The notes beneath the pieces are model-generated. The model worked only from the letters and a program-made list of their open reading frames with translations. It ran no database searches and was not told where the DNA came from. A stretch of DNA of 36,775 bases, taken from Natronomonas salinimetallica. Its GTDB lineage: Archaea > Halobacteriota > Halobacteria > Halobacteriales > Haloarculaceae. Below, one piece after another: positions 7,107 through 11,664 of this stretch. Numbering within the stretch: position 1 is the stretch's first letter; each line of letters opens with the position of its first letter. The translations under genes and the position numbers were made by a program. The DNA is taken from assembly GCF_013839515.1 (NCBI RefSeq), contig NZ_JACDNQ010000021.1, positions 1-36,775 of the forward strand, read 5' to 3'.

Positions 7107-7160
7107 CTGTCCCGGTTCTTTCAGTATCGAAGCCCGCGACGGGTACGTCATCGTGAAGTA

Positions 7161-7182
7161 CCCCGCGCACGGTGGCGCGGGG
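7161..7182. repeat. IS terminal hairpin, right end (3' of tnpB)
   Basis: CCCCGCGC (7161-7168), loop ACGGTG, GCGCGGGG (7175-7182). It lies 9 bases beyond the tnpB stop codon and is the likely TnpA recognition hairpin and the end of the omega RNA scaffold. Confidence 0.8.
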
Positions 7183-7191
7183 CGTCCGTGT

Positions 7192-8529
7192 TTAGTCCTG
7201 CACTGCTGACGCAACGGTCTTTAATTTCTCTCGCGCTTGCCCGCTGGCTCGCGCCTCCCCTGCAGAGGTAACACCCGAAGCGAAAACTGCTCCGTGAGAA
7301 TCGGGGCCTCCACCAGCCCCCGATGCCGCCCGTCTCATCACCCGAACACGTCCGGGCAACCTGTCGAGAGACGGAACATTTCCATACTGGTCGTCAAACC
7401 ATTCCTGCACAACACACACCGCCGCCTTCCGATCTGCGTGATCTTGGAACTCGCACTGCTGACACTTGAATCGCTTCTTGTGCCGGTTCCCACGGGCTGT
7501 GTGCTGGCACTCCGTTCGTGGACATCGCTGACTCGTGTACTCAGGGTTAACATCATCAGACGGAATCCCCTCCCACGCAGCTTTGTACGACACCATCTCT
7601 TGGAGTGCAGCAAACGGAAGACTGTGCAATCTTCGATTCATTCGCGTGCCGTAGTCGATGGACTCTCGCATGTCTTTGAGGTCTTCAAAGACGATTACCG
7701 GAGCCGAAAACTGCGACACCCATTCAACTACTTTCCGCGATACTTTGTGCAGGCAATCGTGAACATAGTCGCGTTCTTCAGTCTGCACGACCGTTTCGAA
7801 CGCGGTCTGTTCGGCTTTCTGCATCCGCTTGCGCTTGGTGAAAAACTCATGCCGATGTTCTTTCACCGACGGGTACTCGAACACCGCAGAGTCTTCCACC
7901 GAACCGCCTTGACTCATCGCAGCGAGGGCAATACAGTCTTCGTTCACGTCGATACCAACAATCGTGTCTGCATCGTGCTTGCTGGCGACGTGATGAGTCT
8001 CATGGGTGACTGTGACGTGGAGTCGCCACTCGTTGTGCTTGTGTACGACTTCGGCGGTGCCAACCCGCCATTCATTATCGTTGAATGCGGTTTGGAGCCG
8101 GTCGAAGTGATCAGGACTCCCTCGAAGGTCGCCTTTGACGTGTGTGCCTCTCGTGGCGGTGATCCGGAATCGAACCGTCCCGTCGTCTTCGAGGAACAGG
8201 CGGTAGCCTTCACCGTGGTTCATCACCATGGGGTAGGACTCGTCGATGTATGGGTAGGGCCGTCGCCACCCGTCATCTTTGTTGTCGTGGTAGGTTTCGA
8301 GTTCACCGAGTGCCTTGTCAACGATGAGTTGGGTGGTGTTGTTGACGTGATCGGCGTTATCCACGACAGTCGATTTGATGTCATCCCAATCCCATCCTTG
8401 TCGGTCAAGACGGTTGGTTTCATTGCGGATGCGGCGGGCCTCAAGACAGCCGGTTTGCAAATCGTCTCCACTCCCCGTGTGGATATCTAGTCCGAACGAC
8501 AAGTTCTGGGTGAGTTTGGACGACTGCAC
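7192..8529 (-). CDS. tnpB: TnpB RNA-guided nuclease, IS1341 type
   Basis: The protein is 445 residues. The RuvC-like triad is intact: Asp194 in VGIDVNEDCIALAA (RuvC-I), Glu282 in VIVFEDLKDMRE (RuvC-II) and Asp366 in DHADRKAA (RuvC-III). The zinc finger is present as CPRTEC (C336, C341) and CQQC (C356, C359). TnpB proteins cut DNA next to a TAM using an RNA made from the element's own 3' end, which helps the element persist. The C-terminal 60 residues are Ala/Gly-rich and presumably overlap the guide RNA region. It is alone between the two terminal hairpins. Nothing indicates inactivation. Confidence 0.93.
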   Translation of the reverse strand: MQSSKLTQNLSFGLDIHTGSGDDLQTGCLEARRIRNETNRLDRQGWDWDDIKSTVVDNADHVNNTTQLIVDKALGELETYHDNKDDGWRRPYPYIDESYPMVMNHGEGYRLFLEDDGTVRFRITATRGTHVKGDLRGSPDHFDRLQTAFNDNEWRVGTAEVVHKHNEWRLHVTVTHETHHVASKHDADTIVGIDVNEDCIALAAMSQGGSVEDSAVFEYPSVKEHRHEFFTKRKRMQKAEQTAFETVVQTEERDYVHDCLHKVSRKVVEWVSQFSAPVIVFEDLKDMRESIDYGTRMNRRLHSLPFAALQEMVSYKAAWEGIPSDDVNPEYTSQRCPRTECQHTARGNRHKKRFKCQQCEFQDHADRKAAVCVVQEWFDDQYGNVPSLDRLPGRVRVMRRAASGAGGGPDSHGAVFASGVTSAGEARASGQAREKLKTVASAVQD

Positions 8530-8584
8530 TATATTCTCGTATGGTTCGATATTTGTTAAAAGTTCGTGTTGTGACGCGCTTCAC

Positions 8585-8606
8585 CCACGGGCACGGTGGC
8601 CCGTGG
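8585..8606. repeat. IS terminal hairpin, left end (5' of tnpB)
   Basis: CCACGGGC (8585-8592), loop ACGGTG, GCCCGTGG (8599-8606). It has the same loop and stem length as the right-end hairpin, but several stem pairs differ in a compensated way, so the hairpin shape and not just the sequence is conserved. Confidence 0.8.
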
Positions 8607-8699
8607 TACTCGCGCTGTTATTCATTATAGATCCGGACGGATAGGGGGACGAATCCGGTAGATTATGTACCGGCCGGACGCACTATTTAGTACCCCTTC

Positions 8700-9836
8700 A
8701 TGAGTGATCATATCGGCGCGCCGGGACGAGGTATCTCACGACGCGAGTTCTTGACGGCGACCGGCGGAACCGGAGCTCTCTCGCTTGCGGGCTGTTCGGA
8801 GCCGATCGACAGCGCCCTCGGAAACCAACCGACGAAACAGGTAGACGACGAACTTCCGCCGACCAGCCCGCCCGAGATCGTCAACGTCGACGAGCAGGGT
8901 GGCTCTGTAACGCTCTCGTCGGTGACCTCCAGGCATCCGATCCATCCGCTCGAGTCGATGGGTGGGCCGGTCGAACTCCCGCGTGTCTGGGCGTTTCAGG
9001 CCGACGATCGCGAGCCGAGCGTCCCCGGTCCGATCCTCCGGACGACCGAGGGCGAGGACATGGAAGTGACGCTCGACAATACCGACGCGAGCCACCCTCA
9101 CACGGTTCACTTCCACGGCGTCCAAAAGAGCTGGGAGAACGACGGCGTACCGACGACGACGGGTATTCAGGTCGATCCCGGTGAGCGATACACCTACACC
9201 ATCCCCGCGAACGTGCCGGGGACACATCTCTATCACTGCCACTACCAGACCCACCGACACATCGACATGGGAATGTACGGGATCCTCCGGGTCGATCCCA
9301 AGGGCTACGAGCCGGCCGACAAGGAGTACTTCCTGACGCTCAAAGACTGGGACTCCCGGCTCTCACGGACGATGAACGGCGAGGATCTCGACTACAGTCC
9401 GCGTAATCGGACCCCCGACGTGTTCACGATGAACGGCAAGAGCCTGCCCCGGACCATCCATCCAGAAGAGGGATCGCCGATCATCGTCGATTCGGGTGAC
9501 ACCGTCCGGCTCCATCTCGCCAACTCGGGCTACATGTCGCATCCAATGCACCTCCACAACCACCGCTACCGACTCGTCGCCAAGGACGGTGGCCGGGTTC
9601 CCGAGGCCGCCCAGTACGAGCAGGACATCACCAATATCGCGCCCGCAGAGCGCCACACCATCGAGTTTGAGGCCGATGCCGACCCCGGCATCTACCTCAT
9701 GCACTGTCACAAGGTCAACCACGCGATGAACGGGAACTTCTACCCCGGCGGGATGGTCAACGCCATCGTCTACCGCGATGCCATGGACTCGGACGTCTTC
9801 GCACAACTCATGGAGTACGCGGGCTACGACGGGTGA
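8700..9836 (+). CDS. Tat-exported two-domain multicopper oxidase lipoprotein
   Basis: The protein is 378 residues. The N-terminus has a Tat motif (SRREFLTATGG) and a lipobox LAGC at Cys32, so it is probably anchored outside the membrane. Domain 1 has HPHTVHFHG (about 132-140) and HLYHCHYQTHRHIDMGMYG (about 176-194: Cys180, His185/187, Met190, type 1 copper). Domain 2 has SHPMHLHNHRY (about 280-290) and YLMHCHKVNHAMNGNFYPGGM (about 332-352). This is the layout of two-domain laccases and copper nitrite-reductase-like oxidases. The substrate is unknown; nitrite, metal ions or phenols are all possible. A TATA-like TATTTAG lies about 15 bases upstream. The stop codon abuts the repeat element at 9837. 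Confidence 0.9.
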   Translation: MSDHIGAPGRGISRREFLTATGGTGALSLAGCSEPIDSALGNQPTKQVDDELPPTSPPEIVNVDEQGGSVTLSSVTSRHPIHPLESMGGPVELPRVWAFQADDREPSVPGPILRTTEGEDMEVTLDNTDASHPHTVHFHGVQKSWENDGVPTTTGIQVDPGERYTYTIPANVPGTHLYHCHYQTHRHIDMGMYGILRVDPKGYEPADKEYFLTLKDWDSRLSRTMNGEDLDYSPRNRTPDVFTMNGKSLPRTIHPEEGSPIIVDSGDTVRLHLANSGYMSHPMHLHNHRYRLVAKDGGRVPEAAQYEQDITNIAPAERHTIEFEADADPGIYLMHCHKVNHAMNGNFYPGGMVNAIVYRDAMDSDVFAQLMEYAGYDG

Positions 9837-9916
9837 ATCGCCTCGGGGTCAAGTGGTTCGAGACGCGGAGCGTCTCGTCATCACGGAAATCGGAGATTTC
9901 CGTACGACCCTGAGGT
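9837..9916. repeat. Stand-alone copy of tnpB right-end structure (copy 2)
   Basis: Directly after the oxidase stop codon lies CGCCTCGGGGTC, the linker AAGTGGTT, hairpin CGAGACGC-GGA-GCGTCTCG (9859-9877), the linker TCATCA, hairpin CGGAAATC-GGA-GATTTCCG (9884-9902), then GACCCTGAGG closing the outer stem (9906-9915). The same architecture and linkers occur in inverse orientation at 245-321, but three pairs in each hairpin differ and are compensated. No tnpB is nearby, so this is a solo right end or a MITE derived from it. It may also act as a 3'-UTR structure for the oxidase mRNA. Confidence 0.8.
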
Positions 9917-9975
9917 ATTCGCCTCGTACCGCGTATAAAGACGGCGGTAGCATCGGCTCCCGAGTCCGCCCCCGG

Positions 9976-10006: not shown

Positions 10007-11644
10007 ATGTTCCAGACAGTACGACGGCTCTTGCGGGGGCTGTCGGGATCAGGATCTCCACGGATGACCGACGGCGGGACGGAATCGATCGACGGTAGAG
10101 CGGAATCGATCGACGATGGAGCGGAATCGATCGACGGCGAGACGACACAGCTCGAATCGCGGTCGCCCGGCGACGGGGAACCACCGGCTGGGTCCGCGGC
10201 CGGAACGGTCGTCGACTCCTCGGGCGTGGAGCTTTTGAATCTGCTCGCACAGCCGACGTTCGCTCTCGACGCCGACGGGCACATCGCTGCCTGGAACGAG
10301 GCGCTCGAGGAGCTAACAGGTGCGTCCGCCGGGGAAGCGCTCGGCCACGAGCACGCAAGCGAGATGTTCTATCCCGACGGCCGGCGGGCCGAGACGCTCG
10401 CCGACAAGGTGTTGGAACACCCGCGATCGGCCCACGAGGCGTACGACGTCGAACTGGACGATGCCGACACACACCGAGTGAGCGATACGAGCACGATGAC
10501 CGACCAACACGGCGACGAGAAACACATCGCCTTCTGGGCGACACCGCGGTTCGGCCCCGAGGGCGACCTCCTCGGCGTCGTCGAGGTCGTCGTCGACCAG
10601 ACGGACATCATCGGCTCACAGCTCGCGATCGAGGACCTCGTCACCGAACTCTCCTCGACGCTCGGGGCCGTCCGGAACGGCACCTTCGACGAGCGGGCAA
10701 GCATCGACGATGCACACGAATCCCAGTTGCGCGATCAGGGAGTCGACGTCGGGATCGTCGGGGAGTTCAACCAGTTCATCGACGACTTCGAGACCCTTAG
10801 TAGCCGCGTCGAGTCACAGTCCGACCAGCTGACCCACATCGTCGAGGACGTCGTCGACAGCGCCGACGAGATCGCGACTCACATCGACGAACAAAACGGG
10901 ATGCTGGAGGACGCTGTCTTGGAGATGCAGTCGTTTTCAGCCCGAATGGAGGAGGTCGCCGCGACCGCCAGGGAAGTCGACACCGCCGCGACGCAGGCGA
11001 GCGAGATCGCAAGCAACGGCGTCGACACGAGCCACGACGCCCGCGCCGCCACCGACGAGGTGACCGAGATCGGCGACGAACTCGTCGAGAATATCCGGGC
11101 ACTCGACGACCGGATGGGGGACATCGAAACCGTCGTCGAGATCATCTCGGAGGTGGCCGAACAGACGAACCTGCTCGCGTTGAACGCCAACATCGAGGCC
11201 GCTCGCGCTGGATCCGACGGGGACGGGTTCACGGTCGTCGCAGAGGAAGTAAAGACGCTGGCCGACGAGACCCGCGAACACACGGAGGACATCACGGAGA
11301 GCATAGAGCAACTGCGCGAACAGACCGAAACGACGGTGGATGCGGCGGTCGAATCGAGCGAGACGATCGACAACGCGAGCGAACGGATCGACGAAACGCT
11401 CGCCGCCTTCGAGGAGATCGACGACGCCATCGAGGAGGCGGCCAACGGCATCGCCGAGGTTTCGCGGGCGAACGATGAACAGGCCTCCGCGGTCGAAGAG
11501 GTCACCGCGACGCTCGAGAACGTGCGCGAACGGGCCGAGCAGGCGGATTCGGCCGTCGACGACGTCAACGCCGCCGCCGCCGAACAGAGCGCGGCGCTGG
11601 ACCAGTTGGCCGCCCGCGTCGACGAACTCAGGGGCCGCGAGTGA
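10007..11644 (+). CDS. Soluble PAS-domain chemotaxis/signal transducer (Htr type)
   Basis: The protein is 545 residues with no transmembrane segment. After an N-terminal low-complexity part with three 7-residue repeats (AESIDDG-like, 10079-10141), a PAS domain occupies about residues 75-200 ([22 protein letters not shown] ... [12 protein letters not shown]). A long helical methyl-accepting signalling domain follows to the C-terminus. Its CheA/CheW-contacting tip is [18 protein letters not shown] at about residues 384-402. It would sense a cytoplasmic signal (redox, light or small ligand) and modulate CheA. No bound cofactor can be inferred. The gene is convergent with tfb; its stop codon abuts another fragment of the repeat element. 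Confidence 0.9.
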
Positions 11645-11664
11645 ACCGCCTCGGGGTCAAGTGA
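11642..11664. repeat. Half copy of tnpB right-end element (copy 3)
   Basis: TGAACCGCCTCGGGGTCAAG begins exactly with the TGA stop of the transducer gene and matches the first part of the 9834-9855 copy with one change. The two hairpins and the closing arm are missing, so this is a truncated relic. Confidence 0.65.

Follow-up and report, generated by a model that had tools for sequence, protein, structure and literature searches.

A probable mobile double hairpin nested in a PATE-like element of Natronomonas salinimetallica

IS200/IS605 elements such as IS608 have hairpin ends, cause no target duplication and recognise a strand-specific target 5′ of the insertion, possibly with guide pairing. 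Among haloarchaea, PATEs and terminal-only IS605 forms are described in Haloquadratum walsbyi, and small mobile repeats (SMR-A) nested without duplication inside their near-terminal palindromes were reported there in 2011; their mobilisation was called enigmatic (PMC3119063). REPINs and BIMEs are pairs of inverted hairpins that carry a short conserved foot and move as a doublet, and excision events are reported for them (PMC3116915, PMC2817692). CGTC-tagged REP dimers have stems of 8-9 bp, lie in some cases within larger palindromes or genes, and have no associated transposase gene (PMC3733652).

The window, the whole stretch of 36,775 nucleotides analysed here, is an entire contig. A sequence-only reading had placed two copies of a three-way-junction element in it, one at 245-321 that is shared with a tnpB right end and one at 9839-9916 that stands alone. 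Both copies were found there, and the stem differences between them are indeed compensatory. RNA folds of 9837-9916 (z = -5.5 and -6.8 on the two strands) and of 243-321 (z = -6.8 and -6.8) are three-way junctions that 0 of 200 shuffles equal in stability, and when folded as single-stranded DNA, the 102-nt unit is stabler than shuffles, as is each of the two 56-nt cores. What that reading missed is that the origin of the outer stem differs from that of the two hairpins. The junction is a composite, in which a 54-bp inner double hairpin, called the core below, is nested in a 48-bp outer element. The features of the window are these:

13-312, + strand: TnpB reading frame, C-terminal fragment, cut by the contig end and reading through the core
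246-328, + strand: tnpB element right end, with the core inside its palindrome CCTCGGGG/CCCCGAGG, terminus GATTCAC
254-307, + strand: inner core, first copy, 54 bp; covariance model R1 gives 84.2 bits at 253-310
about 7153-8634, - strand: second tnpB element, tnpB at 7192-8529, a plain palindrome at either end; its right end is TACTTCAC
7161-7182, - strand: uninterrupted right-end palindrome of the second tnpB element, followed by TACTTCAC; core-free comparison
8585-8606, - strand: uninterrupted left-end palindrome of the second tnpB element
8700-9836, + strand: multicopper oxidase gene (Pfam Cu-oxidase domains); its stop TGA at 9834-9836 comes from the right end of the outer element
9833-9934, - strand: outer element, PATE-like, 102 bp with the insert and 48 bp without; left end after TTAT, one palindrome, right end ...GCGATTCAC
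9854-9907, - strand: inner core, solo copy, 54 bp; R1 gives 82.5 bits; delimited by filled/empty comparison
9935-9938, - strand: presumed target tetranucleotide TTAT (ATAA on the + strand), from the joined flanks
11641-11663, + strand: truncated third copy, of which the right end GTGAACCGCCTCGGGGTCAAG and two further bases are left, likewise overlooked before

The boundaries of the outer element were set by alignment of own copies and by analogy with a four-copy element of 349 bp whose flanks differ. Uninterrupted twins in related genomes read CCTCGGGG-CTCAA-CCCCGAGG (L094) and CCTCGGGG-CTTGA-CCCCGAGG (L109) with the same left and right ends, and against them the interrupted form has 54 nt extra between G and C. 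Because these core-free twins share both ends and differ by 54 nt, the solo copy at 9837 is a PATE-like element with a second element inside. The second tnpB element of the window also has left and right ends of the kind seen in core-bearing elements, with plain palindromes. The four copies of the 349-bp relative (L116-L119, genome G017) are pairwise identical at 345-347 of 349 positions and have different flanks, with TTTAC at the left and ...TTCAC at the right end and no repeat, hence no target duplication. With flanks that differ around fixed ends, TTCAC is part of the element, and the target remains outside it on the left; for the window locus, the lack of duplication is taken over from this relative.

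The outer element thus resembles the PATEs and terminal-only IS605 elements of H. walsbyi: terminal inverted repeats, target duplication and transposase are absent, a near-terminal palindrome is present, and the sequence is non-coding and related to IS605 ends. Without its insert it measures 48 bp, against 52 bp for the terminal-only form of ISHwa23 (PMC3119063), and it differs in carrying the 54-bp core; the target here appears to be TTAT/YTAC. Judged by these comparisons, it is near certain that a PATE lies behind the oxidase stop codon and that an independent 54-bp element occupies its loop.

The GTGAA at the end of the oxidase gene is the reverse complement of the TTCAC right end, and in nine relatives of the genus that lack the element the oxidase ends at or near the corresponding residue. 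The joined empty site at the locus would read GAC GGA TAA, with a native stop codon, no empty copy having been seen in the same species. Similarly, the stop TGA (11642-11644) of an MCP/transducer gene at 10007-11644 is supplied by the third-copy remnant. In the sense of the gene, the target of the outer element is G-TAR or A-TAA and its right end is GTGAA, so that entry into NN^G TAG or NN^A TAA (^ marks the junction) gives NN^G TGA and the C-terminus of the host protein is preserved. Among 20 of the 21 own-genome places that were judged (L012, which the pattern had placed wrongly, was left out), 10 have the outer element directly 3′ of a reading frame of at least 109 codons whose TGA it supplies; Pfam backs 6 of these 10 frames as real genes, and the other 4 have no match. 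GTAG-type bacterial REPs, too, are said to provide stop codons (PMC3733652). This tally, together with the presence of the core in 50 of 53 genomes of the order, could speak for a retained host element that stabilises 3′ ends or acts as a terminator, as some REP sequences do, with mobility being secondary. However, it is the outer element that stands at stop codons, as a consequence of its target, and the core lies within genes as well, disrupting tnpA with a TGA, which leaves a host role highly improbable.

Core-bearing places number about 21 in the own genome, also unnoticed before. With a covariance model of the inner 58 positions, 19 places score at least 76 bits and 2 more about 61-63 bits; BLAST gives 48 matches to the element region (E ≤ 10). 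The copies fall into tnpB-linked right ends or remnants (L007, L014, L015), two classes of short solos, and a few elsewhere. Left ends of the short solos are of type TCTACAG..GAGTGCC or type TTATCAG..GAATACC, and the outer palindrome with a TTCAC-type right end is common to all classes except the copies in other places, with solo L006 deviating. In another genome, G044, the homogeneous solos L090-L098 belong to a longer repeat whose left palindrome contains the core; they are nearly identical except for the length of the spacer that follows TCTACAG.

The core has the layout TSGT-n-[hairpin]-TGATSA-[hairpin]-A-ACSA. The solo core reads TCGTACGG..TGATGA..CGAACCA between the G and C of the palindrome loop. 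In the own-genome alignment A2 (17 copies, 16 distinct rows), both sides are changed in 7 of the 16 core pairs, and the covariation score is 0.320 versus 0.131 for shuffled alignments, with 0 of 500 shuffles reaching it. Across many genomes, 80 distinct rows pair in 98.0% of cells, with both sides changed in 11 of 16 pairs and a score of 0.406, against 0.140 in shuffled alignments (0/500) and no more than 0.077 after sliding, in an alignment that was fitted to the model and is biased towards structure. The number of pairs changed on both sides was no greater than in shuffles for A1 (167/500), and further pair types gave no excess over shuffles in any of the three alignments. The earlier proposal of selection on the folded structure is therefore supported, the score lying above all 500 shuffles in both A2 and the 80-row alignment.

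Insertion was examined with 183 distinct copies, gathered from loci by a pattern demanding a flanking G and C. Their length is 52-62 nt, and 97 of them measure 54 nt. In the covariance-model alignment, where G and C were not demanded, inspection by eye showed that 79 of 80 distinct rows have a G ahead of the core and that every row has a C behind it. The flanks of 177 usable copies were joined and searched for empty sites (identity ≥75% and ≥15 nt on each side). A match was found for 141 copies, 118 of them ungapped at the junction, and GC stands exactly at the junction in 106 of these 118, with neither duplication nor scar. The remaining 12 are inexact (GA in 9, for example), which is compatible with later loop changes. 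Since many of the targets are related repeats, these counts are not independent events. Outside IS605, 32 filled/empty cases have at least 25 nt on each side and identity of 80% or more. An archaeal bulge-helix-bulge intron was set aside on paper, both junctions lying across the same base pair.

Of the 183 copies, 87 sit in IS605/PATE loops, where the type-1 copies all point the same way, and core abundance correlates better with TnpB (rho 0.53) than with Y1 (rho 0.36). The core might then have spread only passively, with IS605/PATE elements and palindrome exchange after one or few ancient insertions. What argues against passive spread is that filled/empty pairs occur in tnpA (L218 versus L274, 94% over 100 nt), in tnpB coding sequence and in unrelated repeats, one repeat family being entered at two positions (L192/L203/L271 and L206/L216). 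Moreover, neither a TnpB nor a Y1 tnpA match was found in the near-complete genome G059, although the core occurs there at about ten places (18 matches when both strands are counted). We thus consider passive spread alone improbable. The core lies inside tnpA genes at L170, L218 and L296 (L296 by translation), and each of these three insertions introduces a TGA stop, while the tnpB coding-sequence insertion L018 retains a 452-aa frame; harmless in-frame insertion was accordingly rejected as a general rule. Many cores (L087, L168, L175, L200 and L299-L311) lie in a multi-copy, structured host repeat, a GC-rich family in which GAGCGAAGCGAG is abundant and one end has GGGGCTTTC.

The sharing with a tnpB right end that was first noticed at 245-321 is real, because the inner core is inserted in the right-end palindromes of several tnpB families, which were entered at one loop position (L060, L061, L064, L067, L068). 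Linkage to tnpB was examined for 101 copies in pattern-picked named contigs, with tnpB sought by seven queries. There were 12 tnpB right ends, 12 copies with tnpB within 1.5 kb in another arrangement, 39 with no tnpB within 1.5 kb and 38 with flanks too short to judge. A covariance-model scan had been suggested as a means of refutation should it find tnpB-linked copies only; this outcome did not occur, as the 39 copies with no tnpB within 1.5 kb show.

These data bear on whether the core is an RNA element, be it as an orphan omega RNA or as a right-end hairpin that a TnpB omega RNA keeps for TnpB binding. The tnpB-linked copies do lie in the right-end hairpin of the omega RNA, omega RNAs that include such a hairpin are reported to be expressed in Halobacterium (PMC12558985), and the four-copy, tnpB-less element of G017 retains the tnpB C-terminal region. 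Against this, tnpB right ends make up just 12 of the 101 copies, G059 carries the core with no TnpB match, homologous right ends occur without the core, and Rfam yielded only a tRNA at gathering score and nothing relevant near the element. At 9837 in particular, the upstream tnpB C-terminal/omega RNA region present in tnpB-linked copies is absent, with only about 20 nt of left end upstream of the palindrome, and uninterrupted twins exist. An orphan omega RNA, which the sequence-only reading had offered as one option for this copy, was thus rejected, mobility via a folded single strand being the better reading, and an RNA role of the core in general is hardly credible. As the core invades tnpB right ends, part of the apparent omega RNA structure in haloarchaeal tnpB elements is a separate parasite. 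As for L116-L119 (349 bp each), they keep the tnpB C-terminal/omega RNA region together with the right end and are candidate mobile carriers of orphan omega RNA.

The target shows a preference. The asymmetric motif CGNNG^C, with CG at -5,-4, occurs in 52 of 81 non-IS605 targets versus 96 of 778 other GC sites, some of the sites being related to one another. For the asymmetric subtype the target is asymmetric as well (C-5 in 50/59, G-4 in 48/59), and in IS605 loops it lies 77 times forward and 0 times reverse. The target of the near-palindromic subtype (TGATCA/ACGAC) is closer to symmetry (G-4 in 15/19, C+4 in 12/19). In the IS608 logic, a guide in the linker pairs with the cut site. If this holds here, complementarity is expected between the linker S and the right-end S, and it is seen in 181 of 183 copies (G-C 148, C-G 33; C-C 2), which may rest on few evolutionary switches. 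A general preference of the core for hairpin loops was rejected, as it is present in IS605/PATE loops only (n = 31); outside IS605 loops, predicted DNA folds show no preference of the junctions for unpaired positions (0.279 versus 0.258, p = 0.74, n = 80).

Because joining is scarless, both hairpins covary independently, the target is strand-specific and guide pairing is possible, HUH-like chemistry on a folded single strand is indicated. Comparison shows an IS605-type element cut down to its left end, one palindrome and its right end, the PATE behind the oxidase stop codon, and an independent 54-bp element, with two covarying hairpins and invariant linkers, between the G and C of the palindrome loop. 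The 52-62-bp core has entered many other sites without duplication or scar. We propose that it moves, or has moved, as a folded single strand. An enzyme with HUH-like logic would recognise both hairpins and cut after NNG in the target and after ACSA at the element end, and pairing of the element with the cut sites would contribute to the choice of the insertion site. The compensatory changes would then stem from the enzyme's requirement that both hairpins can fold, not from an RNA function. This nested explanation is likely as a whole; its single-strand mechanism for core movement is held tentatively, at somewhat less than even confidence. The suggestion that the solo copy is a MITE mobilised as single-stranded DNA accordingly fits the outer PATE, and for the inner core the mechanism is plausible but unproven. 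Like IS608, the core has hairpin ends, a strand-specific target 5′ of the insertion, no duplication and possible guide pairing; it differs in that the core unit has no tnpA and that its ends lie 5 nt from the hairpins.

Movement as double-stranded DNA could be imagined instead, through a cruciform or by an IS110-, serine- or tyrosine-recombinase-like enzyme at a dyad-symmetric site. The core is nearly palindromic (TCGT..TGATCA..ACGA), the target G^C is palindromic with scarless junctions, and the lack of an unpaired-target preference outside IS605 loops would also fit. On the other hand, a duplex site would not require the independent covariation of both hairpins, the common subtype and its target are asymmetric with the single orientation noted above, and no 2-bp core is repeated at both ends. 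The double-stranded route is therefore unlikely in our estimate.

Among 60 relatives, R1 detects the core in 54, representing 34 of 38 genera (E ≤ 0.001). In a sample of the phylum, 50 of 294 genomes match (E ≤ 1e-6), all in the own order, with no R1 match listed outside it; among the 53 listed genomes of the same order or closer, three (G147, G253 and G286) lack the core. A pattern scan of named genomes gave at least 80 matches, those listed being all haloarchaeal and including Halobacterium salinarum DSM 3754, and viral contigs gave 0 exact pattern matches. The core is also present in Haloquadratum walsbyi J07HQW1 (L257).

An autonomous tnpA version with the ends of the core was sought and not found. 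Around 21 Y1 hits in 8 genomes, there was no full unit with these ends surrounding tnpA, and no pair of cores was recognised that flanks a RAYT-type partner gene; cores or half-cores lie near a few of these hits and fit IS605 insertion sites. Y1 matches occur in 32 of 60 genomes, and core abundance is no different with and without Y1 (p = 0.58). Of 12 near-complete genomes with no Y1 match, 11 still carry the core, and Y1 may have been active there in the past. Resident Y1 TnpA and TnpB would thus appear dispensable for the presence of the core. More speculatively, and with some doubt, the core could represent a separate class of minimal mobile DNA: a self-folding double hairpin of 54-62 nt, near-universal in and apparently confined to Halobacteria, inserting scarlessly at CGNNG^C via terminus-target pairing, moved by an undescribed enzyme independent of IS605 TnpA, and repeatedly invading other mobile elements including TnpB omega RNA right-end hairpins.

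Among the described repeats, SMR-A is like the core in being short, without transposase or target duplication, and inserted within the near-terminal palindromes of PATEs and IS605 elements; it is about 110 bp long with prominent inverted terminal repeats, a length that the 52-62-bp core does not reach (PMC3119063). The core is possibly identical with an SMR-A family (HqIRS42/43/55), the comparison being by description, and the literature searched gave no account of the core family. With REPINs and BIMEs, the core shares two inverted hairpins forming one mobile unit; its foot is TCGT/ACSA rather than GTAG, and it is archaeal (PMC3116915, PMC2817692). CGTC-tagged REP dimers share with it the stem length, the dimeric form, the occasional location in larger palindromes or genes and the lack of an associated transposase gene, but the core lacks both their CGTC tag with AT at the stem start and their CCA tail, and its loops are usually of 3 nt (PMC3733652). 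The core is new in the details of its structure and mobility, and its kind, small palindromic non-autonomous mobile repeats, is known. It is very small for mobile DNA, almost every one of the Halobacteria examined carries it, and its presence changes tnpA and tnpB genes as well as the right ends of omega RNAs. Now that the junctions are exactly placed, the target has a motif, the structure is modelled and filled/empty pairs are numerous, the movement of such small repeats is testable. At L144, L151, L158, L182, L270 and L289, other, unrelated hairpin pairs apparently lie within the TGATSA linker of the core; these linker-nested forms approach the reported SMR-A size, and several double-hairpin families may exist.
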